A stretch of DNA of 64,000 bases from Sanghuangporus weigelae (taxonomy: Eukaryota; Basidiomycota; Agaricomycetes; Hymenochaetales; Hymenochaetaceae): positions 1,302,001 to 1,366,000 of the forward strand of contig CP137323.1 in the NCBI GenBank assembly GCA_033182465.1. The letters are read 5' to 3'. The translations under genes and the position numbers were made by a program. The notes below the pieces were generated by a model. That model did not search any database and was not told the DNA's origin. It worked only from the letters and a program-made list of their open reading frames with translations. How positions within the stretch are numbered: position 1 is the stretch's first letter; each line of letters begins with the position of its first letter. Shown piece by piece: positions 5,976 through 39,290 of the stretch.

Positions 5976-6265
5976 TCATTCTGATCGAGGTGACATCCTA
6001 TAGGGTCATGACTGAAGACAGTATTTCAAAGATGTACAAATCAAGAGGAGAAGAGAAATAGTAAGGACCCGGGATATCCAGGACGCCGCGCACGAGAGAG
6101 CAAAGATCCGGGTGAGTTGACAGGAGGGTATAATTCCGAATGATCGAGATCTCAGGAGTAAAGGTGAAGAAGTGAATGTGGTATACATGAATTAGAAGAG
6201 TTGAAATATGCGCGACGAGGAAGAAAGAGTTGACGCGCCGAAAGTGAGTCTTACAGCTACAGCTA
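5976..6265. other. Intergenic, nothing supported
   Basis: Short gap between the last coding-like stretch and the MITE. It ends in ACAGCTACAGCTA, a run of TA-containing steps in which the adjacent transposons inserted. No gene or promoter is recognisable. Confidence 0.4.
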
Positions 6266-7338
6266 GTTGCAAAATTGTTGGCAATCACGTGATTTCACCA
6301 CTTTTCTTGCTATGAGAGCCTCAAAACACAGATAAAATCATATCTCACCCAAATCTCAATGGCTTCACATCATCCAAGTTGCTAGATTCATCTTTTCGAA
6401 AGGGCTTTCGTTTAGGAAAAACAATCGAGAAAATAGAGCAAAAAAGGACCCCAAAATGGCGAAAATATCGTTTTTTGCCTCTTCCTTGTATGTGCATTTT
6501 TTTTCTGTGATCCCTGCTGATCCAGCACCTCCCCAAAGCTATCCAGAATGATAATATGATTATAAAATGAATTTACAGACTGAATTTGAGTTGAATTGTG
6601 TACCAGAATGTGCTGCTTTGAGGCATGCCTGAATCACTCAAAACTCATCATTTCCCCCTAGCCTCCCAGGCTGCAGGAAAAATTCTTACAGGCCAGATTC
6701 GTGCATGTAAATTCATTTTAGATGTAATAGACTAGGTTTGTGCACTAGCTAGGTCCTCAGCATCCACTGGTAAGCTGGGGAGATGCTGTCTAGAATAGTG
6801 CATACAACTAGAAACACTTGTTCAGCCCAGCTCACCAGTGGATGCTGAGGCCCTAGCTAGTGCACAAACCTAGTCTATTACATCTAAAATGAATTTACAT
6901 GCATGAATCTGGCCTGTAAGAATTTTTCCTGGAGCTTGAGAGGCTAGGAGGAAATGATGAGTTTTGAGTGATTCAGGCATGCCTCAAAGCAGCACATTCT
7001 GGTATACAATTCAACTCAAACTCAGTCTGTAAATTCATTTTATAATCATATTATCATTCTGGATAGCTTTGGGGAGGTGCTGGACCAGCAGGGATCACAG
7101 AAAAAAATGCACATGCAAGGAAGAGGCAAAAAACGAGATTTTCACCATTTTGGGGTCATTTTTTGCTCCATTTTCTCAATCATTTTTCCTAAATGAACAC
7201 CCTTTCGAAAAGATGAATTTAGCAACTTAGATGATGTGAAACCATTGAGATTTGGATGAGATATGATTTTATCTGTGTTTTGAGGCTCTTATGGCGAGAA
7301 AAGTGGTGAAATCACATGATTGCCAACAATTTTGCAAC
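6266..7338. mobile_element. Palindromic Tc1/mariner-type MITE (1,073 bp)
   Basis: The element starts GTTGCAAAATTGTTGGCAAT and ends with its complement. It is flanked by TA on both sides (6264-6265 and 7339-7340). The two halves are inverted copies of each other over about 510 bp each, with roughly nine bases in ten agreeing by eye, around a short centre near 6800. There is no coding capacity; small frames in both arms are mirror images. The terminal 20 bases differ at one position from those of the 10.9-kb unit that starts 8 bp to its right, so it was probably mobilised by the same transposase. Arm divergence makes it older than the last homogenisation of the large unit's arms. Confidence 0.85.
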
Positions 7339-7346
7339 TAGCTATA

Positions 7347-9429
7347 ATTGCAAAATTGTTGGCAATTTGGAAAATCACGTGTATTTTTGATGCAAAGTGC
7401 ATCCTAGATGAGCAAAAAAAAACAAAATAGCGAATATCTTAGTCAATACAGCACATAAAAATCTGATATAACCATGTAAAAAACCTGCTCGAAAATGCGC
7501 TCCAGTACATATAAAAATGTCTGGGTTTTGTTGAGTATGTACTTTGCTACTAAAAAGATAGCATCATAATGCTAAATCCTTGTCATGCCCTCCGTTCAGT
7601 GTAAAAATCGTAGCTTGCCCAACATCATCCGGAAAAATCTGATTCAAGTTTGATAAATCAGGCCAGCCCAGTGGGCACCTGTACGCAACTCCTCGAGGCT
7701 CCCTGACATGATTGTGGTAGTGAAACTGGGTGGTTTGTTGTCACTCCTGCTCACAGAACTCTCCCCTACTTCATTGCATCTGTCATAACTCATGCATTTG
7801 GACACCAAAAAATCTGATTGTTTCTGCCAAAAAGACAGCAGCATAGGTGCTTTCAGCTAAGACAGTAGCTGAGCTGACTTAGGCTTGGGTGTGGCTACAT
7901 TACTTGTACTATCTACCAATCAGACTTGAAACCACCCCAGTGACCATCCTCTGCTGAAATGTCACCCAAAATCATATCTGGGCAAGGGCGAACAAGGTCA
8001 GCTCGGCCATCATGCACTCCTGCTGCAACCAAACCAAGTGTGCCCGCCAGGGCCGCAGAAACATCTCTCAGAGAAACACGAGTGAACGCACACGACGGTA
8101 GTCTTTCGTACATAGCATCTCCCCACACAGCAGCTCTCATCACTTGTCCACAGTTCCCTCCTCACCCTCACCAATCCCTCATCACCCACAGGCATGAGGG
8201 AACCCCCAGTTGTTGCTAACGGACCATCACGAGAGACGAGGCACCACGGCAAAGAGATAGGAGGCAGCGACGCATTTGAGGACTCACGTGTCGAGTCGCC
8301 ACTTGATCTCGAGCCATCACCATCTTCACAGCCACCATCTCTACAGCTTATGTTGAGCATTCGTTCATGCAACCCCGGTGACACGGCAGAAGGCTGTCCA
8401 ACGATTTACGGGAATGCATCATCACTATGAACAAGAAACTCAGCGCCTCTCAGATCGCAGCCTTGATCGACATACCCAAGACAACAGTTTTCCGGATAAT
8501 ACGAGAGTTCAAGCGCAATGGGACTGTTGCTGCACATAAACTTGGTTTTCGTGGAAGGCCTCGAGTGCTTGATTATATCCACACCGAGGTATGCACATGT
8601 TGAAACCTGTCCTGGTAGCTGTTGGTTCACACCACATAGTTCCTTTGCGGGTCACTAAGCAATCTCAATGACCGTTACATCGATGAGTTGAGGCTACTGC
8701 TCCAGGAAAGATGGGAGAAGGAGGTCTCGGATGCAACTATACGCAGGTCCTTGCTGCGCGCTGGTTTCACACTTAAGAAGGTGGCTGTCTCTGTCACTTT
8801 GCTTCCCCACGCAGTCCACGCAAACTGAAATCGTCGTTGTCTAGTTATCGAAAAGGGCTCTCGAGCGGAATGAGACTCTGCGTGCACAGTACGTCACACG
8901 TATCACCTCTCAGTACACAGTAGAACAGCTGGTGTTTGTCGATGAGAGTGCTTGCAATCGGCGGGCTTTTCTTCGCAACACTGCTTGGGCCCTTGAGGGT
9001 CACCGTGCGTGTCGCAAGCAGTTTTTCAATAGGGGGAAACAGTGATTCTGCCTCTTGTGGCGCATCGCAAGCTTCTGATTCACTCCGTTAGCTTCTCCGT
9101 CTTGCCAGCTATCAGCCTCGACGGGACAATCGACTGCACTATCGTACAGGGCGCATTCAATATCAAATTATTTGCGGAATTCATCGCCGGCCTGTTGGAC
9201 AAAATGCATCCCTTCCCCGGCACCCAATCAGTCATCGTGATGGACAACTGCCCGATACACAAGGCTCCCGAGATCCGGGAGCTCATCGAATCTCGGTCTG
9301 TCTCACTAGCAATGCAAGTCGCAGCTTGTACTGACCCCTTTGCTTAGGGGTGTCAGGCTTGAATTTCTTCCTCCTTACTCACCAGACTACAATCCTATTG
9401 AACTTGCATTCTCCATAATCAAGTCCAGG
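7347..9429. repeat. Left 2,083-bp inverted arm
   Basis: The arm matches 16166-18248 in inverted orientation, position p pairing with 25595 minus p, with no net length difference. Scattered single-base differences are visible (for example in the Ile/Thr codon near 9162). Identity stops at 9429, inside the last exon of the transposase. The outer 1 kb (7347-8426) is non-coding leader with a small frame on each strand and no clear gene. Confidence 0.85.
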
Positions 9430-9561
9430 TTAAAACGGCAGGGTCCCAGTCCTCAGGATGACGCGTCAGTTGTTGAGCAACTCTGCAGGCAGGTGTATTC
9501 CATTAATTCTTTGGATAGTTATTCCTTCTTTCGCCACTGTCGCTATGATGTGCTTGTATAG
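8427..9561 (+). CDS. Tc1-family DD34E transposase, five exons, apparently complete
   Basis: Exons 8427-8588, 8640-8780, 8845-9041, 9092-9295 and 9348-9561 join in frame through GT-AG introns of about 50-65 bp and give 305 residues. Residues 6-35 form a helix-turn-helix (ASQIAALIDIPKTTVFRIIR). The catalytic acids sit in VFVDES, IVMDNCPIHK and the NPIELAFSIIK segment, with 34 residues between the second and third, as in Tc1 elements. The family cuts and pastes DNA at TA sites and acts on its own terminal repeats in the nucleus. The ATG at 8427 was chosen because a stop lies upstream in frame; a longer spliced N-terminus is possible. No lesion is visible. The last 44 codons lie beyond the inverted arm, so they exist only in this copy. 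Confidence 0.85.
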
Positions 9562-9705
9562 GCCGTTGAATCTGAAGATAGTGTATGTTTACGGACTTTG
9601 GATCATCGATCTCCGGAGAGCTAGTAAGCGAGCTGGGAATACGTTTATAAGCAGCTACCTTCTTCATTGCCACATCACTTTTTTTTTTTTTCATCTCTTA
9701 TCATC
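9430..9705 (+). other. Transposase 3' end and spacer to gene A
   Basis: This holds the last transposase codons (to 9561), then about 145 bp before gene A that include a run of T just upstream of the gene A start (about 9680-9691). No copy of the terminal repeat is visible here, so the left arm does not end as a separate small transposon. Confidence 0.5.
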
Positions 9706-10229
9706 ATGAGTCCCACTCCTAGAAAACTCGCAGTTCGCAAGACTGCGGCTAGTAAGACTGCCGGGACGAAGCAGGCATCCACCGTTACAAGAAACTCCTC
9801 TCCCAAAAAAGCAGCAATGGCCCTGGAGCCCCAGCAAGCAAATGGCCCTCATTCGAACTCTCAAAATGCAGATGTCATTGCTGAAGGACCACGGAAATGA
9901 GGCCGGCCAAGGAAGGCAGAGCGGCCTGCTGTCAACAAGAACGGTGTTGAAGAGATGGTAGTACTGATAGTCTTGTCTTCTGGTATTGCACTCATACTTC
10001 GTAACAGAATAACATGGAAGCGGAGCCCACCACGACAAAAGCAAGGGGCCGGAGAGCTGCTGACGAGGACCTGACGTATCAATATGAAGAGCCCTATGAT
10101 GAAGAACCATCACAACTTGATATTGCCCAAATGGCTAATGACGATCTGGGTCAAGAGTCAGATACCAACAGAGTCGGTACTAGCGATCCTTGGGACTTTG
10201 ATAATCTGTTGCTTGCAGCCGGTGCATAG
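9706..10229 (+). pseudogene. Cargo gene A: Lys/Ala-rich protein with a broken AT-hook
   Basis: Exons 9706-9957 and 10008-10229 join in frame (158 codons). Residues 1-40 are rich in Lys, Ala, Ser and Thr, like histone-tail or linker proteins. At codon 65 a TGA interrupts GPRK-GRPRKAERP. With CGA in its place the text reads as an AT-hook (RGRPRK), so a C-to-T change is the simplest explanation. The C-terminal half is acidic (EEPYDEEPSQLD) and ends WDFDNLLLAAGA. Kept whole it would be a small nuclear, DNA-contacting protein; that role is inferred from composition alone. It lies 144 bp after the transposase and 15 bp before the first open base assigned to gene B on the same strand, so A and B may be exons of one gene. 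Confidence 0.55.
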
Positions 10230-10243
10230 ACCATTATAGGAGT

Positions 10244-11844
10244 TTGTCAGTCTCTAATGATTTAATAGACTACGCTGACAATTCGGACCAAGAGTATAGA
10301 TACGACTCTTCGGTTGTATCTTACGTGCGTTTCATGGAAAATCTTGAACGTGAAAAAGAGGAGCAGCAAGCTCCTAAAGAAATGCGATCAACACTTGTCG
10401 TTCTGGTTGACGATGGGCGGGCTTTGTGCAAAATGAACGTCGAACCTCAACACAGCATAATCGATGTGCGTCAGAACGTGACAAGTATTCTTCAGTGCTA
10501 TCCCACCTCGGTTACACTAGGCTATACCAGTCCATGGTTTAAGAAGATTGGAACGAAGATTCAACCACGGTATCTCGAATCCGATGTAGATCTTGATGAG
10601 CTTGTGCAAGGGTTCAAGAAGTATCTTGAGGAGCTGAAGAAAAAGCGCAAGGTCGATAGTGCAGGCGAAATTGTGCTTATGAACATGAACGATGAACGGG
10701 TAAATGTGATCATTTGCCTTTCTCTCTTTCACGTGTTGATGCGCAAATTCTGTTCCATTTAGAAGGGTTCTAAACGCTCAGGAAGCATACTTCAGAATGC
10801 GACCAAACCAACCAGTGCGGCGGAAGCAACGAAAGATGACCTGAATGCAATGCTTGCGCCTCATATCAAGGAGATCAAGCAGAACCTACGGTGTAGCGTG
10901 CATCCGGAGGAAGTTTGTTATGTTCGTGCCGATGGCACTCATATATATTATACAATGAAGAATTATTTTGATCATGCAAGGCTCCTAGTATGTGTCTTAC
11001 TATCATCTATGTGATTCTGGAGGCTTCTGAGCTTTTGTAGCTAAGTAAAGCTCCGGGCGTGACAGCTTCAGAGGTTCCCAGGCAGCTGAACTTGCTCGAC
11101 TACCACAAATCAAAGCGAACTGTGCAGACCACCTTAGGTTCAACCGCCATAGGCATGCAGCAGGGGCTTACAAACCAAGCTGGCGCTGGTCAAGCACAAG
11201 CGGATGGGGATCCGCAGATCAAACCAGGTGTAGAAAATTCCAGTGCTGGAAGGACTCGCCATGTATCGCCATCGCCCGCCTCCCGGCCTGCACGAGACAG
11301 GCCGAGGGATGATAGAAGGTATCGTGGATCATCGCGTGGCAGGAAGCGTCATCGTGGCAGGAGCCGATCCATCAGAAAGAGAGGTCATACACATCGCTTT
11401 CGATCCTCATCATCATTGGGGCGGGCGGACTCCGAAAGCTCCGCAGAAAAGGATTATCACGATCGCAGTTCGTTATCCGAGGATGACTACAGGCGTCACA
11501 GATATCGGAACAGGCACTCTGCATCGCGTCGTAACGGATATCATCGCAAAGGTCACCACAACAGAACTCAAGGCTCCCCGTCCACGAAGAATAAAATTCG
11601 TGATTATCCTTTGGTAGAGGTTTGGTTGAAGATGTGCAATGATCACATGGAACGAGGGCGCGACAACATGAACTACTCAGTGCTGGCTGATGTTCTGAAA
11701 TGTAATGGATATCCGCACATTAACCCGATTCTACTCAGGTTGACAACCGACGAATTGATTTCAATGGCGTCACAGTTGGGTGTTCACATCATGTGTGGGC
11801 TTGCATCTGCCGTGCTTTTCTATGCTCGGGAGGACATTGGCTGA
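10244..11844 (+). CDS. Cargo gene B: RS-rich protein with SAM-like C-terminus
   Basis: Exons 10244-10699, 10763-10987 and 11041-11844 join in frame through canonical GT-AG introns and give about 495 residues. The 5' end is uncertain: no ATG opens the first exon, so it may be spliced from gene A. The N-terminal about 150 residues (SVVSYVRFMENLERE, STLVVLVDDGRALCKMNVEP) are repeated in the remnant at 15587-16000. The middle (about residues 300-400) is dense in Arg, Ser and His (SRGRKRHRGRSRSIRKRGH), like SR-type RNA-binding or nuclear-speckle proteins. The last 75 residues have the helical layout of a SAM-like domain (WLKMCNDH, LTTDELISMASQLG). No catalytic motif is seen. The function is unknown; an RNA- or chromatin-associated partner of the transposon is inference. 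Confidence 0.6.
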
Positions 11845-12144
11845 ACAGACAATAACGTTCAATAATAAACATGATGTGTTACATTACATATATTCATGTG
11901 CACAATAAATAAGGGTACAAAAGGAAGTGGGAACAAATTTCTGGAGACGATCCGAAATCAATAATGTTCCCAGAAACTCCTATTGAAAAACTGGTATGCA
12001 TATCAAATGAACCACCATAACAAAATGAGAATAAGGCGATTTCAAAAAATTCCACTAACTTAAGGCCCAAACGCAAGGAGCAAACTCAGATCATGTTAGT
12101 TACAACCATAAAAAATGGTGCGGAGACCCAAATACCTTACAAAT

Positions 12145-13462
12145 TTATGCAAGGCTCACCACCGGCGGACAACCGTTCGACACTGAGGATTCACTTTCGT
12201 CACCCGTATCCATGTCGTCTGTCCCGGACGAATCACTATCCGAATCACCATCCGAATCATCATCCGAATCACCATATATGTCCGCTTGAGTGAAAACAGG
12301 AAAACCACGATTCGGGTCGTCAGATTCGGCCTGCCTGACCCGCTCCAGCAGAAGTGCGAGCACTGATAAATGACCATGATACCAAATATGCTTCTTCTTC
12401 TCTTCAAGCGGTTTGCTGCCTTGCTCATAGTCGCACCTCGCCTTGGAACTGTACACAACACTTCGGTAGCGATGGGAATCATATCGATCTTTCATCTCCG
12501 CTTTATAATTATTCTCAGTACCGGAGGCTTTCGGCGTGAAAACTACAAAGGATAGGATCTTAATCGAGACATCGTCCTTCGGGAAGCATTCAGACGCCCG
12601 CTTTAGGCGACAAAATCGATCCTCTGCCTTATCTATATCCATCTCCTTGGTACTTTTGCGCTGATCTTCTGTAAATTTAGTCCACTCAACCAGCTTTTGG
12701 CAGAAACGCTCTGCTAAAAATGCCAATTCTGTTCCCACAATGGAATCGCGCTGGAGTTCGAGGAATTCCCAGAGCTTCTGCGTGAAAATCTCGGCATTAA
12801 TATGTCCGTCGGAAGTCTTTGCGTCCTCCAGTCTCCAGGTGGCGCCCCCAGGAATCTGCTGGTCCGCGGATTGTAGACTATCCACATAAGCGGCTACTGC
12901 GTCGTACACAATGGTCAACGCTCTCTGGAGAACTTCTGGATTTGTCTCGTTTGCTTGGGTCTGGGTTGCCTATTAAAACATGACAAATCAAACTTCCCAT
13001 TATGCCGAAAAAAAGAAAGGAGAAAGATTCTTATGATATTGAAAGCGATCTCGTTTTTATTCAAACGCTCTCTCCGTTCGTACAATTCCCTATGTATAAT
13101 GGCAAATTTTTCTTGGGTGCTCTTAATTCCGAGTCCAATTTGCTCGCGCATAGCCGTAAAGTGTTGGTTCATGTCGTCTACAAACGCATCCTCCTTCTCC
13201 TTTGTAGTCTTTGCAGCATTCACTGCTTCTGTATCTGGAGATACGGACTTCGCAGAAGTTACCATCTTGGATACTGATCAAAAGAGTTCGAAAGTGTGCA
13301 TGCTACAGCATTCAACCGAGGAAACGTACCTGGGCTGACTTTCTCCAGAATGGAAACATTTCTGGAACTCAGGGCTAGGTTGTGGTGGCCAGTTATTTTC
13401 AGTGCTTTGAACAATAGCGGCTGATACTCACAGCCCCTAAGGGTAGCTCGCGAGGAGTACAT
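12145..13462 (-). CDS. Cargo gene C: unrecognised acidic-tailed protein
   Basis: Exons 13462-13330, 13273-13035 and 12969-12145 join in frame to 398 residues starting MYSSRATLRGCEYQP. The middle intron begins ATAAGAATC where GTAAGAATC would be a perfect donor, so either the donor is mutated (C-to-T on the plus strand) or splicing fails. Residues 60-120 are a charged, probably coiled helix (EDAFVDDMNQHFTAMREQI). The centre is mixed alpha with conserved-looking Trp residues. The C-terminus is a run of Asp/Ser/Gly (GDSDDDSDGDSDSDSSG) made of short repeats. A TATATAAG motif about 110 bp upstream (13574-13581) could be its promoter. I recognise no family; no signal peptide or membrane segment is present. 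Confidence 0.5.
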
Positions 13463-13573
13463 GACACTACTCAAACAGAGTTTGAGTGGGGAAGATCGGT
13501 GTAGGGGAGGGAGATAACAATGATGGTGGGAGGAGACAAAGTGGGTACTGGGGATCATTCATCTCTGGCTTTC

Positions 13574-13581
13574 TTATATAC
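13574..13581 (-). promoter_or_regulatory. TATA-like box for cargo gene C
   Basis: TATATAAG on the minus strand lies about 110 bp upstream of the gene C start codon. No other core promoter is obvious. Confidence 0.35.
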
Positions 13582-13806
13582 GGACGACAAGCCGAATCTT
13601 ACCCAGGCTCGGCTGACTAACATCTAGGGTCATCTGACCAGATCTCTAATCTAGTGTGGCCAAGTGGCGCGCGCTTTCTTTCTTTGAATCTTTCGAGGAG
13701 CAAAGGACACAGAGCTTGGACTAAAGTACACAGTGGGAGCAATCATCTCCTCTTCTTCTCTTTCCTCCCTTCATTTACACTCAACACCTCTTACTCGGTC
13801 TCGCCT

Positions 13807-13850
13807 TCTCTTTCCCTTTTCCTTTTCCTTTTCCTTTTCCTTTTCCCTCT
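13807..13850 (+). repeat. (TTTTCC)n microsatellite
   Basis: Six-base TTTTCC units repeat about six times in a pyrimidine tract between cargo genes C and D. A second C/T-rich stretch at 14030-14095 is coding (the Lys/Gly/Glu-rich tail of gene D). Confidence 0.8.
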
Positions 13851-13960
13851 ACCACAACTTCGCCACTCCCTCCTGTGCTCGATTTGATCGGTGTTGAATC
13901 ATACTCCTCTGATCGAGGTTCTTGGAGAACCGTCCTCATTGGCACGAACATTTCCTTAGC

Positions 13961-15097
13961 TCACGGCTTGACTCTGGGTGTGCGTTTTTGGGTATCACCG
14001 AGTAAAACAGCAATGATATCGCCCTTCTCCTTCCCTTTCTTCCCCTTCCCTTTCCCTTTCTTCTCCTTCTTCGGCTCCTCCTCTTCTTCCCGCCTGACAT
14101 ACCCGAGCTCTATATCTTGGTAGGAATCGTGAATAGTTTCCATTTCGAAGGTGATTTGACGTAGGGCTGTTTTATTCTTCTCGCTTATCCGAACCTGCTC
14201 GACCAAAAAATTGATCGAGGCGAATGACATCCTGATGTCTATCAGGTGAGCAGTATTGTTGCCAAGCTGCCAAATGGGATTGCGTTTGTTGACAAAGAAG
14301 TCAACCGCTGCCTGCGCATAATCTTCTTCCGGTGGGAAAGACCACATGCAGAACTCAAGAGTTTCAACCTGATTTCTCCGCCGTGACAGTAGGCTACTTG
14401 ACACGGTTTCGATTGTGTCCTTTAAGAGCGGGATTTGCCATTGAACTGCTGCCAGAAACGCCATCATTACATCGACCGCATTCGGATCCTCCTCCTCCTT
14501 CACCACTAGTTCCTTGAAGCCGATCATCAAACTGCACACATTGGAGAGAAAGACATTCGGGATGGGTTTTTTATACTTGTCGATGCAGGTCATAAAAGCT
14601 TATAGCCTCGTTTCGTTTCCGACCTGAAGGACACCGTCCTGGCTACCGATTTCCGCCATAATACATCCCGCTTCGGTGAGGAGCTTCAGACCAATATCCA
14701 AACCACTCCTTCCTCCGATAGCGTGAGTCGATGATTGTTCCTAAGAGATTATAAGCAATTATAAATCCTTGAAAGAAAGTGCTAAAACTCACTTCTGCCA
14801 TCCTCCGTTGCAGATCGTCATTCGTGGCTTGGTTATGCAGGGTAATCAGCATATCGGTGTGGACGGCCAGCTCCACATGCGCCTAAAACAACTTGCGTAT
14901 GCAGGGTGCCACCTGCCGAATGGCAGCCAAGTACCCCCGGTAGAAATCAGAGCTGCCGATGGCCTGCTCATTCAGAGCTCTGGACACAGACATATTCCAT
15001 GTAGACATGGGCACCTGCAATTCCGAGAGGGTGCCTTATACCCGATTATAAGTACAACGAGAATGAACTCTACATAAGAGAAAATTCTTACCTCCAT
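13961..15097 (-). pseudogene. Cargo gene D: unrecognised helical protein with Lys-rich tail
   Basis: Short exons starting at ATGGAG (15097) join in frame through GT-AG introns (segments GSSDFYRGYLAAIRQ, AHVELAVHTDMLITLHNQAT and EQSSTHAIGGRSGLDI). They run into a long last exon ending at 13961. One TAA interrupts the frame just before AFMTCIDKYKKP; a CAA in its place would restore it, so a C-to-T change is likely. The body is predicted all-helical with no motif I recognise. The tail is highly basic (KKEKKGKGKGKKGKEKG), suggesting nucleic-acid contact or nuclear location. It is co-oriented with gene C and the B remnant. Confidence 0.5.
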
Positions 15098-15586
15098 CCC
15101 GAGGAACTTGGATATCTAAGACAATCTCAGAACAAGTCAAGGAGAATGGAGGATGAGGACCCACATAAACTCTGGTTTTTGGTAGTGCCCTCAAATGACA
15201 TGTTGGTTGTGGTTAGAGGGGAACAGATATCGATCTCGATATCGATCAATTGACACGATCTCATGGGCATGGGAAAGCAAAGTCATGCCGTGAGACCAGA
15301 TAGATACTTATGGACGCTTTATCAAAAGGAAGCATACTCTTCAAAAAAACTCACCAAAAGCGACTGCTGCTTCATAAGCGAGAATCAGAGCTTCTTTGAT
15401 TATTTCTGGCTCTGCCGGCAACGATCTCTATTTATAGTTACAGTTACACATATGAAATGCGAGCATTGCATTGAAGCTGCTTGGGCCGCACTGGTGAAAG
15501 CATTTCCTGAGCGTATGGAACACTTCTAATCGAAACAAATAAGCGCACAATGCAAGGAAAGGGGCAAGGTAAACAATTGCACCTAC

Positions 15587-16000
15587 CGTTCATCGATCGT
15601 GTTCATCAGTGCTATATCCTTTAACGAGTTTGCCAATGCCTTCGTTGGAGTCGAGGTACCATGCTAGAACACTTGTGGTAATCTTCTTAAACTGCGGCGA
15701 GGTGGTGTTCTGACGCACATCATTATGTCGTGTCGTGATTTGATGTTCATTTTGCGCAAAGCGCCCCCCTCGTAATCTAGAACAACGAGTATCGATCGTC
15801 TTTCATTGAGAGTGTACTGGACCTTAATTTTACATTCGAGATTTCTCATGAGGCGCATGTAAGATAGAACCGATGGGTTGCGTCCATTATCTGGTTGTAC
15901 ATCAAATGCGATGGCTATCAAATCGTCAGATTGCCATACTACTATGACGGTCAACGCACCAGTGTTTAAGGCCAAAAGTGATTCCAAACGTGCTCGGTGT
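15587..16000 (-). pseudogene. Mirrored remnant of cargo gene B
   Basis: The minus-strand text (SVLSYMRLMRNLE, RRSILVVLDYEGGALRKMNI, then FKKITTSVLAWYLDS in another frame) parallels the first exon of gene B. It ends at the equivalent splice donor. Frame changes show that it is dead. Seen from the right end of the unit the order is transposase then B, as at the left end, so the mirror symmetry once reached farther in than the 2,083-bp arms. Confidence 0.6.
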
Positions 16001-16165
16001 CTACTTCGTCAAAATCAGCTTTCGGCCAGCATCTTCATTAGTTGTTCGGGCAAAGCGGTATGTTCTCATGACAAAGACGACAACAAATATTGAGTACTTT
16101 ATGGAACTAGGCACGGTTCCCTGCCTGCAAGAAGAAATAAAATAAACTCGTCAGATTCTTCAAAG

Positions 16166-17168
16166 CCTGGACTTGATTACGGAGAATGCAAGTTCAATAG
16201 GATTGTAGTCTGGTGAGTAAGGAGGAAGAAATTCAAGCCTGACACCCCTAAGCAAAGGGGTCAGTACAAGCTGCGACTTGCATTGCTAGTGAGACAGACC
16301 GAGATTCGATGAGCTCCCGGATCTCGGGAGCCTTGTGTATCGGGCAGTTGTCCATCACGATGACTGATTGGGTGCCGGGGAAGGGATGCATTTTGTCCAA
16401 CAGGCCGGCAATGAATTCCGCGAATAATTTGGTATTGAATGCGCCCTGTACGATAGTGCAGTCGATTGTCCCGTCGAGGCTGATAGCTGGCAAGACGGAG
16501 AAGCTAACGGAGTGAATCAGAAGCTTGCGACGCGCCACAAGAGGCAGAATCACTGTTTCCCCCTATTGAAAAACTGCTTGCGACACGCACGGCGACCCTC
16601 AAGGGCCCAAGCAGTGTTGCGAAGAAAAGCCCGCCGATTGCAAGCACTCTCATCGACAAACACCAGCTGTTCTACTGTGTACTGAGAGGTGATACGTGTG
16701 ACGTACTGTGCACGCAGAGTCTCATTCCGCTCGAGAGCCCTTTTCGATAACTAGACAACGACGATTTCAGTTTGCGTGGACTGCGTGGGGAAGCAAAGTG
16801 ACAGAGACAGCCACCTTCTTAAGTGTGAAACCAGCGCGCAGCAAGGACCTGCGTATAGTTGCATCCGAGACCTCCTTCTCCCATCTTTCCTGGAGCAGTA
16901 GCCTCAACTCATCGATGTAACGGTCATTGAGATTGCTTAGTGACCCGCAAAGGAACTATGTGGTGTGAACCAACAGCTACCAGGACAGGTTTCAACATGT
17001 GCATACCTCGGTGTGGATATAATCAAGCACTCGAGGCCTTCCACGAAAACCAAGTTTATGTGCAGCAACAGTCCCATTGCGCTTGAACTCTCGTATTATC
17101 CGGAAAACTGTTGTCTTGGGTATGTCGATCAAGGCTGCGATCTGAGAGGCGCTGAGTTTCTTGTTCAT
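16166..17168 (-). pseudogene. Second Tc1 transposase copy, 3' truncated
   Basis: This is the inverted copy of 8427-9429 with the same exon-intron layout and near-identical protein text (MNKKLSASQIAALID, VIVMDNCPIHKAPE, PPYSPDYNPIELAFS). It keeps all three catalytic acids. Similarity ends abruptly at 16166, after the codons for SIIKSR, and unrelated DNA follows, so the last roughly 44 residues are missing. It may make a shortened protein or be silent. Confidence 0.75.
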
Positions 17169-18248
17169 AGTGATGATGCATTCCCGTAAATCGTTGGACA
17201 GCCTTCTGCCGTGTCACCGGGGTTGCATGAACGAATGCTCAACATAAGCTGTAGAGATGGTGGCTGTGAAGATGGTGATGGCTCGAGATCAAGTGGCGAC
17301 TCGACACGTGAGTCCTCAAATGCGTCGCTGCCTCCTATCTCTTTGCCGTGGTGCCTCGTCTCTCGTGATGGTCCGTTAGCAACAACTGGGGGTTCCCTCA
17401 TGCCTGTGGGTGATGAGGGATTGGTGAGGGTGAGGAGGGAACTGTGGACAAGTGATGAGAGCTGCTGTGTGGGGAGATGCTATGTACGAAAGACTACCGT
17501 CGTGTGCGTTCACTCGTGTTTCTCTGAGAGATGTTTCTGCGGCCCTGGCGGGCACACTTGGTTTGGTTGCAGCAGGAGTGCATGATGGCCGAGCTGACCT
17601 TGTTCGCCCTTGCCCAGATATGATTTTGGGTGACATTTCAGCAGAGGATGGTCACTGGGGTGGTTTCAAGTCTGATTGGTAGATAGTACAAGTAATGTAG
17701 CCACACCCAAGCCTAAGTCAGCTCAGCTACTGTCTTGGCTGAAAGCACCTATGCTGCTGTCTTTTTGGCAGAAACAATCAGATTTTTTGGTGTCCAAATG
17801 CATGAGTTATGACAGATGCAATGAAGTAGGGGAGAGTTCTGTGAGCAGGAGTGACAACAAACCACCCAGTTTCACTACCACAATCATGTCAGGGAGCCTC
17901 GAGGAGTTGCGTACAGGTGCCCACTGGGCTGGCCTGATTTATCAAACTTGAATCAGATTTTTCCGGATGATGTTGGGCAAGCTACGATTTTTACACTGAA
18001 CGGAGGGCATGACAAGGATTTAGCATTATGATGCTATCTTTTTAGTAGCAAAGTACATACTCAACAAAACCCAGACATTTTTATATGTACTGGAGCGCAT
18101 TTTTGAGCAGGTTTTTTACATGGTTATATCAGATTTTTATGTGCTGTATTGACTGAGATATTCGCTATTTTGTTTTTTTTTGCTCATCCAGGATGCACTT
18201 TGCATCAAAAATACACGTGATTTTCCAAATTGCCAACAATTTTGCAAT
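16166..18248. repeat. Right 2,083-bp inverted arm
   Basis: Inverted partner of 7347-9429 and of equal length by my count. Its outer end is flanked by TA at 18249-18250 and followed by GCTGTAATGG. That matches, in mirror form, the ACAGC steps left of the MITE at 6259-6263, so the MITE and the large unit probably entered one short palindromic target. Confidence 0.85.
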
Positions 18249-18250
18249 TA

Positions 18251-18846
18251 GCTGTAATGGGCACGGAAGCAAACTCCGAAAAACACGCGTCCTGCTGATC
18301 TTTATTGATCATCATGATCGACATTTGATCATTCATTCAATGGTTTCATCTTGCTCACCTAAGGAAGGTAGCCACAATCACAAGCGATTATCATCCTAAT
18401 CTGCTCGATCCGACCCTCTTCGAAAGCACAGTTCACCGATCAAAACGACGCCACCTATGCAACCGAACCTCCTACCGGAGACCTGCACTATGCGGCAACC
18501 ATACAGATGTAGTGGCTAATTGTTAATTCATGTGATCTGATGGCCTCATTATGTCAGATGCTCTTGTTTTTGAAGTCCAGCACATGCCTTTCCCTACCAT
18601 AACAAGGGATACTGGTTCCATTTTGATCAGATCTACTTCCTCAGGCCTGGTCTTCTTCCAAGACAGATTGCGATTTGATCGTGCACGATGTGGTTTTGGC
18701 TGTTCATGCATCATAACAGCGTTAAGAGGCAAGAAATAAACCAAATGTGCACAAACAAAGGTTTGAAAGAGATACGGGAGCTGAGTTTGGCCGTTAGGTC
18801 ATTCGAAGCAGGAAGCGTGAAGTCAGACAGCAAAAGCGACAACGAG
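18251..18846. other. Spacer between the Tc1 unit and the Copia element
   Basis: About 600 bp with no supportable gene. It contains short GATC-rich palindromes near 18300-18340. The Copia element is inserted at its right end. Confidence 0.4.
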
Positions 18847-18851
18847 TGTTC

Positions 18852-19137
18852 TGTTGGATTATCAAACTGTCGAAGTTCTGATCGAGTTGTTTCACTTGCC
18901 GTTTGGAATGAATATATGGTATTTATTAATCATTTGCATTCTTTCGGTTTTGTGCTTGTCATTCTTGTTTGTCAATTCTCTTTCGCTTTTTGAATTGTAT
19001 TACCATTCTATTTCTTTACCGTTCTATCCCGACTTATGTCTCAGATCCCTTCAGTATTATAAAACCGCTGTAAAAACTGTATAACAAAATAATAGAGAGT
19101 TTTCCTCTCGGATATTCGTGTTCGCTCCCTCACAACA
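18852..19137 (+). repeat. Copia 5' LTR
   Basis: 286 bp, TGTTGGATTATC to CTCACAACA. It contains a TATAAAA box near 19057 that would drive the element. Confidence 0.95.
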
Positions 19138-22100
19138 GGTTATGAGCCTTGCTTGATCGTGCGCCAGAGTCCGCTATTTTTCAATCAAAGCAATATTCCG
19201 AGTGTTAGCGCCTGAGACCGCTACAGAGAAAAGGAGAAACTCACCGATATGTCCTTGTCATTGGACGAACTGAAGTCCGTGCCGTCTTTACAGCCTAGTG
19301 GGGAGAATTGGACGATATTCGCTATACGTCTTGAGGCCGCTGTACGTGCCAAACGAGTTTGGGACAAAGACGAAGATACAGCAAATTATTTGCTTACCTC
19401 GAAGCTCCCTGATACGACTATTGTCCGAATCTTGACATGTCGTACAGTTGCTGAGAAATGGAGATTAGTAGTTCAGGAATATACCGACAAATCGATGTTT
19501 GCACAAACCTCGTTGAAAAACGAATTCATGGAGTCGAAATGCCCCAAAGGAGCGAATGTGAAGCAATTCCTGAATGAATTACGCCTCAAAAAGCAAACAT
19601 TAGCAGCATGCGGCGTAACAATCGACAATGATGCTTACAGGTCGACTATCATCAACTCCATTCCTCCTGGATTGGCCAAGTATGCTTTGACCCAAGTTTC
19701 GGCCGCTGAAGTAGCAGCAAGTCATGCAATTTCGTTTTATGGTGGCCAAATTTCCCAGGAAACCATTCGAAAAATCCGAGCCATCGATCCAGACGCTCTA
19801 ATCCATCTCATATCAGTTGAATCCGAACGAGAGTCGAAAGAACGTGAAAGACGAAAAACTGACCAAAAACGAGATACCAAAGGCAAGGAAGTATCCCTCA
19901 TTTCTGAGGAACGACCTCGAAAGGAAACGAGGACATGTCGTTATTGCCACAAACCAGGGCATATTGTCAAGAACTGTAAGAAGCTCAAAGAAAGAAAAGA
20001 TCAGTCTTACAGTGGACCAAAACGCGAAACGAAGAACTCACCACCGGAGAAAGAAAAGCCTAAATCGAAGGATGGAAACATGAAAGAGTCTGCCAACGTA
20101 ACTGTGGATTCTGAGGACAAATCGGATTGGTGTGCTGCAGTAGATGAGGATGTGAAAGAAGGTGTCGAGTGCCCACCTGGTTTCGAAGACTGGTTTGACG
20201 AAGACGAAAACGACTATCCTATGGTCGAGCTCTCAGCCAAAGTGACAGAGGATACACCCGAGGAAGAAGAAAGAATTAGTCAAGTTATCATTGATTCTGG
20301 AAGTACACGTCACCTTTCTCCAAATAAATCTGATTTTATCTCGTTTCGTACCGTTCCGCCGAAGTTACTTCGCGCAGCGAATAGACAGCCATTCCACGCT
20401 GTTGGAGAAGGAACTATCGAGATAGAACTACCGAATGGAGATTCAGCGTCAAAGATACAATTGAAGGATGCGTGGTACTCACCTCGAGTGACATCTACCC
20501 TAATTTCAGTGGGCCGTCTCGATTTAATGGGACACGAATCGACTTTTGGAAACGGAAAATGCATCATTATCGATCCAGAAGGAAGGAAAATCGCAGACAT
20601 ACCTCGTACTGAACGTGGTCTATATCGTTTCAATGTCGATTCTGCTACATACTTGATCAATGATGAAGATGAGAGGCAGAAACTTACTGTCGATCAGTTG
20701 CACGCGAGATTGGGCCATATATCGCCCAAATCTGCCACCCAGTTGATAACGAAGGGTCTTGTTGAAGGAATCCAGCTAGACCAGTCAGTACCTGCACCCA
20801 AAACATGTGATTCATGTTTATATGGCCGTGCTACTCGATTCCAGATAACAAAAGCTCGATCTAGCAAGTTAGCAGAAAATTTCGGTGATGAAATTCATAC
20901 CGATCTTTGGGGACCCTCACCTGTCCAATCAATTGGAGGCAAACGTTACTATGTGTCATTTACAGATGATGCCACAAGATTTACATACCTGGCAATCATA
21001 CGATCGAAATGAGACGCTTTTGACTCGTACAAAATGTTTGCTAAGTGGGCCGAAACGCAACATGGCGTTAAAATAAAAAGACTTCATTCCGATCGAGGGG
21101 GAGAATTCACTGGGAAAGACTTTGTTGAGTTTCTCAAATCTCAGGGAACAGAACAGAAGCTCACCGTTCATGATACTCCTGAACACAATGGAGTTGCTGA
21201 ACGAGTCAATAGGACAATTGGCGAGAAAATGCGTTCAATGCTGCATAGCAGCGTTTTGCTGAAGAACTTGTGGTCCGAATGCTGCAAGCATGCAGCATGG
21301 TTGAAGAATCGTGTCGTTACCAGACCATTAGGAAATAAAACGCCATACGAGGCGCTTTACGGAAAGAAACCCTTCTTGAAGGGATTGCCCGAATGGGGCT
21401 CTCGAGTCTGGGTACATGACACTAGTGGATCCAAATTGGACAAAAGAGTCCGTGTGGGCAGATGGGTTGGATATGATTCAGCATCGAACGGATCACGCAT
21501 ATATTGGCCAGAAAACAAATCACTCACCGTGGAACGAAGTGTATACTTTTCGCCGAGCGACGTCAAATCGATTTGTCTTGAGAGGGAGGAAGAAAAGGAG
21601 ACCCCTAGCGAGAAAAACAAAAACGAAGAAAAAGAGACTTACAAATCCAAGACGATCGTCGATGAGGACAACGAGAACTCTTCTAAACGCATTAAGAAAC
21701 CCTCTCCATACGTTAGGAGAGTATTGGCCGGCGAGGGATCCGATAGGAGTCTGCCACGGGGCATGCGCGCAGCAGTAGCTGCGGCTGCAGATGTGATTGA
21801 TGAGAGGGTGGACGACTACGAGGAGGAGTATGCGTTCATGGCCGCTATGGACGACGTGGACGTCGTTGAACCACACTCCCTATCAGAAGCGAAAAGACTC
21901 CCCGAATGGAGACTGTGAGAGCAAGCTATGAAAGAAGAAATACACGCATTAGAATCAGCTGGTACATGGGAGAAACGCGACCACGTACCTAAAGGAACCA
22001 ACATCGTAGGTTCCAAGTGAGTCTTCAAGGTGAAGAAGGACGCTGCTGGGAAGCCTATACGATATAAAGCAAGGTTAGTGGCACAGGGTTTCAGTCAAGT

Positions 22101-23440
22101 CCCAGGAGTCGACTTTTTTGAAACATACGCACCTGTCGCGAAACTTTCTACTATCCGAGCCGTCCTGGCCATGGCAGCACTTTACGACCTCGAATTGGAA
22201 CAAATTGATGTTAAAAGTGCTTACCTAAATGGCCACTTTGATGACGGAGAGGACATATTCATGAGGCCGCCACCAGGATATGCGAGGAGCAAAACCGAGG
22301 TATACGAGCTGAAGAAACCCATATATGGCCTTAAGCAGTCTGGACGAAAATGGTATCAAAAAGTCACGTGGATCCTTTGTAATAAATTGGGATTTACCTG
22401 CTCGGATGCCGACCTCGGGGCTTTCTTCCTCCACAACAAAGACAAAATTCTTATTGTGGTGATTCATGTCGACGACTTTACTATTTCTGGAACACGTGGC
22501 GAACAGATAGCTTGGTTCAAGCAACGCTTTCAAGAATATGTTGACATTACTGACCTTGGATCACTTCACTGGCTGCTCGGAATTGAAATCATTCGGAATC
22601 GCGAAAATCGAAGCCTTTCTCTTTCTCAACGGGCCTACATCGATGCTATCTTGCGTCGATTTAACTTTGACGAGCTAAAACCGCTGTCCAGTCCCATGGA
22701 CCCAAATGTTCATTTAACCTCTTCGCAATCTCCACACTCAGCCGAAGAACTTGGCACCATGCGGGACGTACCATATCGAGAGGCGATTGGGTCCCTAATG
22801 TATGCGGCTTTAGCAACTCGGCCCGACATAGCATTTACTGTAACGCTATTATCCAAGTTTTCCATGAACCCTGGGCCAGATCATTGGAAGGCCGTCAAAC
22901 GTGTATTCGCGTACTTAAAAGGTTCCAGAAATCTTTGGTTGACCTACGGAGGAGTTCAAGGACGTGAGTTGAAAGGCTTTACGGACGCAGATGGAAGCAT
23001 GCAGGAAGAACGTCGAGCAATTTCTGGTAATGTATTTATTCTGAATGGAGGAGCCATATCGTGGTATTCAAAAACACAAGAAATTGTCTCGCTTTCTACA
23101 GCCGAATCCAAATACATTGCCGCCACCCATGCAGCCAAAGAGGCAATTTGGCTTCGCCAACTTGTTTATCAATTATTCAAGACGTCTCTTCAACCAACAA
23201 CCATCTTTTCTGACAACAAATCCGCGATTTCCATTACCAAAGAACGTCAGTTCAACGCTCGAACAAAACATATCGATGTTCAATATCACTTCATTCGATG
23301 GCTCATCGAGGAAAATAAAATTCGACTCGTGTTTTGTCCTACCGAGGACATGACAGCCGATATATTTACAAAACCTCTGCCATCTTTCAAAGTCAAACAT
23401 TTTGCTTCGGAACTCGGACTTCGCACACTTTGAGGGGGAG

Positions 23441-23726
23441 TGTTGGATTATCAAACTGTCGAAGTTCCGATCGAGTTGTTTCACTTGCCGTTTGGAATGA
23501 ATATATGGTATTTATTAATCATTTGCATTCTTTCGGTTTTGTGCTTGTCATTCTTGTTTGTCAATTCTCTTTCGCTTTTTGAATTGTATTACCATTCTAT
23601 TTCTTTACCGTTCTATCCCGACTTATGTCTCAGATCCCTTCAGTATTATAAAACCGCTGTAAAAACTGTATAACAAAATAATAGAGAGTTTTCCTCTCGG
23701 ATATTCGTGTTCGCTCCCTCACAACA
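23441..23726 (+). repeat. Copia 3' LTR
   Basis: 286 bp, matching the 5' LTR at every position I compared except one. It is directly preceded by the polypurine tract and followed by the TGTTC target duplication. Confidence 0.95.
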
Positions 23727-24120
23727 TGTTCTTCAGACTCTGTTCTCTAGACCTACGTCGTTTGTATCTGCCACGGCGCGAAGCTTGCATGGCGCACCAG
23801 CGTCGCCACTAACACTATCTTCTTCAATCGGCATCAGCACTCGGCCAGCTACGCCTGAAAGATCCCTTTTGTTTAGACGGATCCCGATTTCCGTGCTATG
23901 AGTTCTATCTTGCCAAGCTGGCAAACAGAGTTGAATTTCTATTATTGATGTCTCTAGATAAGTACCACTCCTTTTGTTTTCTCGGTGTTTTCGGGTCAGA
24001 TTTTCGCTCCGCTCTGATGGAAACTAGGAGATGGTGTATCATCGGCTACTTCTCACAAGCAACCTGTCACCGTCATCAACGAGAGCCCGTGTTCGTCCAG
24101 AGGTATCCGATATTCGGTGG

Positions 24121-30167: not shown

Positions 30168-31620
30168 TGAAAGGATCCGCTCAAAATCTCGCATCAAGAT
30201 TGATGCAATCAGCAGATCTACATGATCAGCTTTCCAAACACAACCAGTAACCAAGCCAGCTATCACGGGCCTAAGCAATCGAGCTGCCTAGGCAGCAGTA
30301 ACCCGTTACCACCCGAGCGCTAGAAGCACCAAAGTGGATACGTAATCCCACTAACAGCTAACACCGCCGACCGCCTATTACCACGGACTACCACTCTAAC
30401 GCCGCCGACTGAACAACCGGAGCAACCTCGATCAAAGAAGCGATCAAACTTTCTAGAAGTCCAGAAGCACAACTACTAAAGCCTAAATGCTAAAAGGCTA
30501 AAGGCTAATAAGGTTTATGGAGACCTCACTGGCATTTCAGCACTGTCAAGTCTGTGCACAAGTTTACATGGTCCTTTATGAAGTATACTACATAGTATGC
30601 ACGTCAACCGTTGGAACTCGTGACTGTCACATCAAAACCGAGCGACACCTTCAAGATACAATGCATTCCAATCCACCAAACCCAATAGTACCCAAGAAAC
30701 AAGAGGAACTCACAATCACAACTCGAACCCCTTGAACTGCAGACCCGATAACCTGGAGAATGATTAGATGGTATAGACCGGAGTTGCACACACCATGTCC
30801 AGCATCTACGATACAGGCAAACCTTTATTTACCGAGAGACGTGAACCTAGAGACCAAGCAAGTACAACTCCTTATACAACGAAGGATATGGCATTACATT
30901 TGAGACATACGATATGAAGGCAAAGCATGGCTAGTCACCAGAACCCAGCAGAACCCGCCAGCAGAGCTTATGCAGTTCATGATATGCCTTGGACCATACT
31001 CTACACCGACCCGACACCTAAACACCGACGTGCGAGTTATGCTTACACTCAATGGACCTCGAGATGAATTTCGAAGAATCACATACCAAGCAGCCTACAT
31101 TGCTCCAAGAGCAAAGATGCCACTCAATGATGGCAATGACATCGTTATGGAGTACTGACAGTGGAGCATTCCATATCGGAGCACCACCTCTATTGTCTCA
31201 GTCAGCAACTCCACAGAATACTGTCATAGTGGAGACGACCTTACAAAGATTGGAGCAAAGTGGAGCAAAGCGCAGCAGGATGACAAAGGAACAGATGTAA
31301 TGGTGGAGAAAAGTGGAGTAAAGTGGAGACAGGATGAGTAAGAAATAGGATGGAAAATGGAATATCTGGGAGCATAAATAGCTGTAGGATTAGGCCCTCA
31401 TTTCCCCATCTTTCGATCCTCTTAACACACTGGTGTAAAGCTTGCTCTACAGCGAGCTATTACTGTGTGCTTTGTACTATCACGCCTCTTGGAAATCCCA
31501 ATCTGTTTTACTATCACCTCGTATCTGAAAGCATCCATAACTCGGACTGCGACTAGGAAGGCTAGTAAGGGACCGTGTGGTACAGCCAGACGTGGGTAGA
31601 TAAGATCACCTCTGCACAAC
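30168..31620 (+). repeat. Repeat family P, copy b (left arm of an inverted pair)
   Basis: Starts TGAAAGGATCCGC and ends CCTCTGCACAAC. It is the inverted partner of copy c, 60 bp away. The strand is that of the shared reading frame (30517-31158 here), which is broken in this copy in a few places. A TATA-like CATAAATAG lies downstream of the frame near 31373. TG...CA ends and an internal promoter-like box suggest a long terminal repeat with the frame in its U3 part, but no polymerase-bearing relative is in the window. Confidence 0.65.
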
Positions 31621-31680
31621 TGTTAGAGAGTAGGCCCGGGGTTACACCGGTTCGATCCTTTTGCCTAAGCAGCAGTGTGT
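31621..31680. repeat. 60-bp family O leader between inverted P arms
   Basis: TGTTAGAGAGTAGGCCCGGG and the following bases match the first 60 bp of the O element at 35991. In both places the next base begins the P repeat, so O leader and P form a joined unit. Confidence 0.65.
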
Positions 31681-33131
31681 TGTGCAGAGGTGATCTTATC
31701 TACCTACGTCTGGCTGTACCACGTGGTCCCTTACTAGCCTTCTTAGTTGCGGTCTGAGTTATGGATGCTTTCAGATATGAGGTGATAGTAAAGCAGGTTG
31801 GGATTTCCAAGAGGCATGATAGTACAAAGCACACAGTAATAGCCTGCTGTAGGGCGAGCTTTACACCAGTGTGTTAAGAGGATCGAAAGATGGGGAAATG
31901 AGGGCCTAATCCTACAACTATTTATGCTCCCAGATATTCCATTTTCCGTCCTATTTCTTACTCATCCTGTCTCCACTTTACTCCACTTTTCTCCACCATT
32001 ACATCTTTTCCTTTGTCATCCTGCTACGCTTTGCTCCACTTTGCTCCAATCTTTGTAAGGTTGTCTCCACTATGACAGAATTCTGTGGAGTTGCTGACTG
32101 AGACAATAGAGGTGGTGTTCCGATGTGGAATGTTCCACTGTCAGTACTCCATAACGATGTCATTGCCGTCATTGAGTGGCATCTTTGCTCTTGGAGCGAT
32201 GTAGGCTGCTCGGTATGTGATTCTTCGGAATTCATCTTGAGGTCCAGCGAGGGTAAGCATAACTCGCACGTCGGTGTTTAGGTGTCGGGTCGGTGTAGAG
32301 TATGGTCCAAGGCATATCATGAACTGCATAAGCTCTGCTGGTGGGTTCTGCTGGGTTCTGGTGACTAGCCATGCTTTGCCTTCATATCGTATGTCTCGAA
32401 TGTAATGCCATATCCTTTGTTGTATAAGGAGTTGTAATTGCTTGGTCTCCAGGTTCGCATCTCTTGGTAAATAAAGGTTTGCCTGTATCGTAGATGCCGG
32501 ACATGGTGTGTGCAACTCCGGTCTATACCATCCAATCATTCTCCAAGTTATCGGGTTCGCAGTTCGAGGGGTCCGAGTTGTGATTGTGAGTTCCTCTTGT
32601 TTCTTAGGTACTATTGGGTTTGGTGGATTGGAATGCATTGTATCTTGAAGGTGTTGCTTGGTTTCGATGTGACAGTCACGTGTACCAACTGTTGCCGTGC
32701 ATACTATGTAGTATACTTCATAAAGGACCATGTAAACTTGTGCACAGACTTGACAGTGCTGAAATGCCAGTGAGGTCTCCATAAACCTTATTAGCCTTTA
32801 GCCTTTTAGCGTTTAGGCTTTAGTAGTTGTGCTTCTGGACTTCTAAGAAGTTTGATTGCTTCTTTGATCGAGGTCGCTCTGGTTGCTTGGTCGGCGGCGT
32901 TAGAGTGGTAGTCCGTGGTAATAGGCGGTCGGTGGTGTTAGCTGTTAGCGGGATTACGTATCCGCTTCGGTGCTTCTAGCGCTCGGGTGGTAACGGGTTA
33001 CTGTTGCCTAGGCCGCTCGATCGCTTGGGCCCGTGATAGCTGGCTTGGTTACTGGTCGTGTTTGGAAAGCTGATCGTGTAGATCTGTTGATTGTGTCGAT
33101 CCTGATGCGAGTTTTTGAGCGGATCCTTTCA
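31678..33131 (-). repeat. Repeat family P, copy c (right arm), best-preserved
   Basis: About 1,454 bp, TGTTGTGCAGAGG to GCGGATCCTTTCA, with termini of LTR type. It carries the longest undamaged version of the family's reading frame on the minus strand. With copy b it forms a near-perfect inverted pair around the 60-bp leader. Confidence 0.7.
32141..32782 (-). CDS. Conserved 213-residue protein of repeat family P
   Basis: An uninterrupted frame starting METSLAFQHCQVCAQVYM and ending NDGNDIVMEY. The same protein text is recognisable in all other P copies, which are interrupted. Segments such as MIGWYRPELHTPCPAST, WHYIRDIRYEGKAWLVTRTQ and ELMQFMICLGPYSTPTRHLN look like a folded domain with alternating strands. 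I recognise no catalytic motif, zinc ligand or signal peptide. It does not look like gag, protease, integrase or reverse transcriptase. It may be an accessory protein of the element or an exapted frame; its function is unknown. Confidence 0.5.
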   Translation of the reverse strand: METSLAFQHCQVCAQVYMVLYEVYYIVCTATVGTRDCHIETKQHLQDTMHSNPPNPIVPKKQEELTITTRTPRTANPITWRMIGWYRPELHTPCPASTIQANLYLPRDANLETKQLQLLIQQRIWHYIRDIRYEGKAWLVTRTQQNPPAELMQFMICLGPYSTPTRHLNTDVRVMLTLAGPQDEFRRITYRAAYIAPRAKMPLNDGNDIVMEY

Positions 33132-33555
33132 GTAGTATACTTCATAAAGGACCATGTAAACTCATGCACAGACTTGACAGTGCTGAAATGCCAGTGAGGT
33201 CTCCATAAACCTTATTAGCCTTTAGCCTTTTAGCATTTAGGCTTTAGTAGTTGTGCTTCTGGACTTCTAAGAAGTTTGATCGCTTCTTTGATCGAGGTCG
33301 CTCTGGTTGCTTGGTCGGCGGCGTTAGAGTGGTAGTCCGCAGTAATAGGCGGTCAGTGGTGTTAGCTGTTAGTGGGATTACGTATCCGCTTTGGTGCTTC
33401 TAGCGCACGGGTGGTAACGGGTTACTGCTGCCTAGGCAGCTCGATTGCTTAGGCCCGTGATAGCTGGCTTGGTTACTGGTCGTGTTTGGAAAGCTGATCG
33501 TGTAGATCTGTTGATTGTGTCGATCCTGATGCGAGATTTTGAGCGGATCCTTTCA
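33132..33555 (-). repeat. Partial tandem duplication of the P end
   Basis: This 424-bp stretch repeats 32707-33131 almost exactly. The P terminus therefore occurs twice in a row and ends GGATCCTTTCA both times. It is followed by an inverted copy of part of the O leader (33556-33593). Confidence 0.8.
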
Positions 33556-33744
33556 ACAACACACCACTGCTTAGGCAAAAGGATTGAACTGGTGAAGAGT
33601 AAGACTAAAGCTTGGGAGCGTACAAAGTCGTTAGGACCAGTTCCGCGGTGTTCCGACTGGTTTCACCTGGTTTTGACTGGTTTCGCTGGAACGAGTGGAC
33701 TTAGCAAGAACGCCATAGTCTAAATGGCATGTGCACTGTTCTGT

Positions 33745-35990: not shown

Positions 35991-36047
35991 TGTTAGGGAG
36001 TAGGCCCGGGGTTACACCGGTTCAATCCTTTTGCCTAAGTAGCGGTG

Positions 36048-38827: not shown

Positions 38828-39290
38828 GTTACGCCACATTCCGACACTTTAGACTACAAGTGAAATCAGCTGCCATCACTTCCCAGTGTGTTAGCTCGGT
38901 CGATTAGTCACATTTGGGTTGGTGGTTCAACTAGCGTAGCTTAAGTTTAGATTAGTTCTTGCGCCTTGTGTTTGTCAGCTTTAGTCCAGAGCTCACAGTT
39001 GAGCCGGAGAGTCGATTTAGCCTTTGCACCGCCACCATCAATCTCAGGAGAAAAGTCCATCCTCGGGACCCTTCCTCAAGCGCTTCCCATGCATTCCTCA
39101 GCCCTCATACAACCTTCCCCTCGTATATTCTCTTATCCCTTCATTTCTGCTTGCCTTTGGTCAAAGGTGTAACTCTCTGCTGACCACTCAAAGGTATTCT
39201 AGGGCAGCCCCTCAAACTTTATATTCCCTGTCAGGTATCAGAACACCCACAGAAGTTACACCTGTGTAACCCCGGGCCTACTCCCTAACA

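Follow-up and report, generated by a model that had tools for sequence, protein, structure and literature searches.

Tc1/mariner is a very widespread superfamily of DNA transposons. A length of 1–2 kb and a single gene, taken as normal for the superfamily in a first-pass annotation of the locus described here, hold as a norm, but exceptions have been described, namely the telomere-bearing elements (TBE) of Oxytricha, with three open reading frames (ORFs) (PMC4724952), and a family of 3,972 bp in Marasmius oreades (PMC9674265). Here, we analysed a stretch of 64,000 nucleotides from the basidiomycete Sanghuangporus weigelae (assembly GCA_033182465.1, contig CP137323.1, positions 1,302,001 to 1,366,000, forward strand), referred to below as the window. 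It contains a 10.9-kb unit, unit B, that combines Tc1-type ends and a Tc1-type transposase with long inverted arms and enclosed genes designated X, Y, and Z. With a probability of roughly 0.5, we interpret unit B as a palindromic composite Tc1-type (DD34E, DDE_3) element with an associated gene X.

Several described systems resemble unit B in part. The Tc1-mariner family TIR_1 of Pleurotus ostreatus shares with it a DDE_3 transposase, a fungal host, and TA, which in TIR_1 is the target duplication (PMC4905642). In the accessible portion of that paper, however, TIR_1 is given as 1.6 (a column taken as kb), with 214-nt terminal repeats and one named transposase, whereas unit B has 2,085-nt arms that hold most of the transposase gene, and it encloses several genes. 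The TBE are also Tc1/mariner elements with more than one gene, but their three ORFs lie between the terminal repeats, the target duplication is ANT (in TBE1), the accessory genes are different ones, the elements reside in a ciliate germline, and the portion of the paper available to us mentions no palindrome (PMC4724952). MarorTcMar-18, the Marasmius oreades family cited above, is a mushroom Mariner-type family exceeding 2 kb, and its relative of 1,120 bp, newly inserted and devoid of protein domains, is near in size to element A, the neighbour of unit B. This likeness is one of description and not of sequence, and neither a palindrome nor cargo is mentioned in the accessible part of the source (PMC9674265).

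Very long and length-variable inverted ends are known from Galileo of Drosophila, where the authors attribute them to tandem repeats, to the recruitment of sequence from further inside, and to recombination and conversion (PMC3573991). Galileo belongs to the P superfamily, its ends reach about 1.26 kb, and its copies with the longest ends are described as lacking a transposase ORF, unlike unit B; by analogy, it offers a described parallel, from another superfamily, for the growth or exchange of long inverted ends (PMC3573991). The 14-kb ToxhAT of wheat-pathogenic fungi is a DNA transposon of similar size that encloses a non-transposon gene, but it belongs to the hAT superfamily and its transfer between species has been reported (PMC9594970), whereas movement of unit B is a proposal. 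The main text of a paper on the transposons of Laccaria bicolor does not contain the word mariner (PMC3411680). In a limited search of open-licence literature, without subscription papers, supplements, Repbase, or Dfam, none of the titles and abstract openings listed described an element of Tc1 type that combines 2-kb arms with mirrored cargo.

The features of unit B and its surroundings are listed in Table 1. The limits first proposed for the unit, 7347–18248, described a real structure but omitted the TA at each end. Followed outward, the match between the inverted arms stops precisely at TA on both sides, in agreement with the TA-flanked matching termini of the first-pass annotation, and the equal length of the arms is likewise borne out. 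They are 99.5% identical, differing at 10 of 2,085 positions, and 6,736 nt separate them. Long inverted arms thus make up 2 × 2,085 of the 10,906 nt, the arrangement found in foldback elements. The whole window was searched for the 22-bp terminal repeat, allowing at most 3 mismatches; four copies were found, against none in 100 shuffles, and two of them bound unit B while the other two bound element A. No terminal repeat above chance was found between the arms, as had been noted for their inner ends: the best inner match was 14/22, and the maxima in 100 single-base shuffles had a mean of 14.28 and a largest value of 17.

Table 1 Features of unit B and of the surrounding window (positions are those of the window).
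Feature	Position	Strand	Description
Unit B	7345–18250	.	10,906 bp, TA to TA, 22-bp terminal repeat at both ends
Left terminal repeat of unit B	7345–7366	+	begins with TA
Left arm of unit B	7345–9429	+	2,085 nt
Left Tc1-type DD34E transposase	8194–9561	+	open six-exon model, 370 amino acids
Gene X	9706–11844	+	five exons; one in-frame stop at 9898–9900
Gene Y	12145–13265	-	two exon pieces; expected donor between the pieces lacks GT
Gene Z	13961–15008	-	two in-frame stops
X'	15450–16053	-	mirrored, decayed remnant of X, matching portions of 10123–10866 on the left
Right transposase copy	16160–17401	-	mirror of the left exons; truncated
Right arm of unit B	16166–18250	-	2,085 nt; 10 mismatches against left arm
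Right terminal repeat of unit B	18229–18250	-	
Element A	6264–7340	.	1,077 bp, foldback over whole length; 22-bp terminal repeat of unit B; TA at both ends
Copia-type long terminal repeat retrotransposon	18852–23730		terminal repeats of 290 bp at 99.3% identity; domains for gag and reverse transcriptase
Dual-specificity phosphatase-like gene	45430–46062		DSPc, E 1.5e-8
First of two related genes	51663–52807	-	
Second of two related genes	54432–55313	-	weak zinc-finger matches below cut-off

Because unit B has outer ends only, with TA at both, and because its halves are mirrored beyond the arms, the sequence supports a single structural entity bounded by one pair of Tc1-type ends. Such ends would allow the whole unit to move, nothing inside contradicts this, and unit B could in principle be mobilised as one. 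The TA at both ends of unit B and of element A is consistent with a TA target duplication. The differences between the arms are spread along them, and since all 10 are transitions and 6 of the 10 involve a CpG in one copy or the other, they look like natural mutation and not like an assembler's copy.

The left transposase matches the Pfam domain DDE_3 with an E value of 2.6e-29, above the cut-off, and its predicted catalytic residues are D199, D283, and E318, with 34 residues separating the second aspartate from the glutamate. An N-terminal helix-turn-helix is indicated by HTH_33 above the cut-off, HTH_SB and HTH_23 falling below theirs, and the match to the Sleeping Beauty transposase structure 5cr4 is weak (E 4.5e-4). 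Because of the DDE_3 match and the DD34E spacing, unit B is, as judged from its transposase, a Tc1-type (DD34E) member of the Tc1/mariner superfamily. The first intron of the gene model (8352–8389) is merely 38 nt long and is uncertain. A DD34E transposase gene had been claimed for each arm. The left gene is open and extends 132 nt beyond its arm; the right copy retains D, D, and E, but a stop one codon beyond the arm end deprives it of the 42 C-terminal residues. Unit B apparently contains one complete transposase, the left one, and not two.

The symmetry of the unit continues past its arms. Gene X adjoins the left arm, starting 144 nt downstream of the left transposase stop with no terminal repeat in between, and the relic X' adjoins the right arm in mirrored order and orientation. 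Neither X' nor element A had been described in the first-pass annotation. Three inverted matches were obtained with blastn, running from left to right from 10123–10477 to 16053–15707, from 10537–10611 to 15692–15618, and from 10667–10810 to 15618–15478, with identities of 66–72% and a best E value of 2e-38. At the protein level, two stretches of 51 residues are 49% and 37% identical. Elsewhere in the window, no X-like sequence was detected (tblastn, E 0.1). The best inverted match between the inner halves scored 148 bits, and the maximum in 100 two-base-block shuffles was 29.7.

In one gapped alignment of 10221–10866, all 12 gaps correspond to bases absent from X'; when the outer part was aligned with blastn, whose gaps are cheaper, both sequences received gaps. 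Differences between X and X' amount to 0.32, 0.23, and 0.33 at the three codon positions, values that indicate little constraint on the compared sequences. Between the right arm and X' lie 112 nt that showed no homology to the left side (best score 11; mean 9.5 and maximum 19 in 200 shuffles). Since X and X' are 66–72% identical and the arms 99.5%, the comparison points to inner parts that are old copies of each other and to arms that are younger or homogenised. Because X adjoins the transposase on both sides, it probably travels with it.

Element A lies 4 bp (GCTA) from unit B. It is self-complementary over its full length at 91.9%, its inverted arms spanning the entire element as in foldback elements, and as single-stranded DNA it folds end to end, a fold without a shuffle control at that length. 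The sole convincing match between element A and unit B is the terminal 22 bp. Because this foldback shares both the terminal repeat and the TA ends, the 22-bp end pair appears to go with long palindromes. Element A resembles a non-autonomous partner, one that the unit B transposase could mobilise. Three of the four element ends read outward TAGCTRTA (6246–6265, 7339–7358, and 18249–18268). This may be a target preference, possibly palindromic, or a local repeat, as seen in two elements only. The joined flanks of A and B were uninformative: frames of 117 and 69 amino acids cross the join, and frames of 118 and 156 amino acids occur elsewhere in the stretch.

Between the arms, about 6.7 kb of multi-exon genes had been reported. 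The length is right and X is multi-exon, but each of the three gene models carries a defect (Table 1). At E 5, Pfam gave no match for X, for the exons of Y, or for the last piece of Z (13961–14593, the sole piece of Z scanned), and a PDB sequence search with pieces of X, Y, and Z gave nothing convincing (best E 0.031). Structures predicted from single sequences for the main exon of Y and that of Z were uninformative, with mean predicted local distance difference test scores (pLDDT) of 38.9 and 36.7, respectively. We take the X product to be a basic protein in which one stretch is AT-hook-like and another SR-like. Starship giant transposons carry a DUF3435-type tyrosine recombinase as captain; no such domain was found in the parts of unit B that were scanned, namely the transposase, X, Y, and the final piece of Z. 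The ends and the transposase of unit B are of Tc1 type.

The ratio of observed to expected CpG is 0.71–0.72 in the arms, 0.89 in the cargo, and 0.97–1.04 in three regions at 40–64 kb of the window, and it is very low, 0.24, in element A. The cargo value does not support handling of the cargo as a repeat, for which CpG depletion would be the sign. Among viral contigs, where fungal copies are not expected, the transposase, X, the last piece of Z, and the main exon of Y gave 8, 1, 23, and 2 pattern matches, respectively, none of which was confirmed as a relative. An exact 19-base match to the terminal repeat in one of these contigs (5,016 nt) was attributed to chance, as the contig lacks a second repeat and blastn at E 0.1 showed no similarity between it and the window.

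In the mechanism that we propose, two inverted copies of a half consisting of terminal repeat, transposase, and gene X would have formed unit B, with loss of the inner ends. The right half would next have lost the 3' end of its transposase and most of X, and it would have gained or retained Z and Y. Later, the outer 2.1-kb arms would have been made near-identical by gene conversion between them, or by template switching in post-excision repair that copied the left end onto the right, with homogenisation reaching to where the halves cease being homologous. The left transposase would bind both outer terminal repeats, cut, and reinsert the entire block at a TA. Three points are inferred rather than seen directly, namely the membership of X in the element, the homogenisation of the arms, and the mobility of the entire unit. 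That unit B as a whole ever transposed is a tentative proposition to which we give somewhat less than an even chance, by judgement and not by calculation.

Several observations weigh against the composite element. A cut of 10.9 kb would be long for the Tc1/mariner superfamily. Neither Y nor Z is mirrored by a partner, and because X, Y, and Z are all damaged, what the unit encloses may be passive remains. Control pairs of other stretches were also compared; 100 were drawn from 40–64 kb of the window, and 35 with starts within 3,500 bases were removed. Among the remaining 65, which lay within 40.5–63.4 kb, the best inverted match reached 99.7 bits and the next 36.8. Because one control pair scored so high, inverted repeats of some strength evidently arise in the window for other reasons. 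Finally, an arm copied in a single event would be indistinguishable from a converted arm, because in both cases identity ends where homology ends.

The damage to the enclosed genes and the lack of mirror partners for Y and Z would also be expected if two ordinary Tc1-type transposons had inserted in opposite orientation around older genes, each then losing its inner end, so that the block never moved whole. The absence of known transposon domains from the scanned pieces of X, Y, and Z and the small size given for the Pleurotus DDE_3 family (PMC4905642) agree with this scenario, which we regard as possible but doubtful. It requires two independent losses of inner ends and leaves the mirrored copy of X beside each arm unexplained, and the left transposase, open to its stop and followed so closely by X without an intervening terminal repeat, is difficult to reconcile with it. 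Simple capture of host genes by a cargo transposon that moves whole, with the long arms as its normal ends, would accommodate the single pair of outer ends, the TA on both sides, and the lack of inner ends; we consider it improbable, since the mirrored relic X' suggests a composite origin instead. False duplication of the inverted arm by the assembler would fit the near-identity across 2 kb and the single copy seen, but is highly improbable, as the spread, exclusively transitional, and mostly CpG-type differences look natural and the sequence directly inside the right arm passes into the diverged X'.

Apart from unit B and element A, the window contains a Copia-type retrotransposon and a dual-specificity phosphatase-like gene, and the two related minus-strand genes are likely a local duplication. 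A cluster of large repeats occupies 30168–39300, with inverted and direct copies of 1.3–3 kb at 86–96% identity, including a palindrome at 30168–33131 and a 424-bp tandem duplication; in this cluster, Pfam gave no match for the single ORF tested (32141–32782).

If it is true that unit B, the proposed palindromic composite element, moves whole, it would represent a Tc1/mariner route for carrying blocks of genes in fungi, a role ascribed in earlier reports to Starships and to hAT elements, ToxhAT among them. Beyond this single locus, one may envisage a fungal lineage of multi-gene Tc1/mariner elements in which the transposase is constantly accompanied by X, with its AT-hook-like and SR-like features. 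Such elements would grow through inverted, palindromic dimerisation, enclosing whole blocks of genes of about 10 kb and carrying them along. We think this extension unlikely but worth stating. Even if it formed in place, unit B clearly shows a long palindromic structure within an element of Tc1 type, X and X' providing an old inner clock and the arms a young outer one. Because the diverged inner and the young outer clock share one structure, the homogenisation of transposon arms becomes testable.

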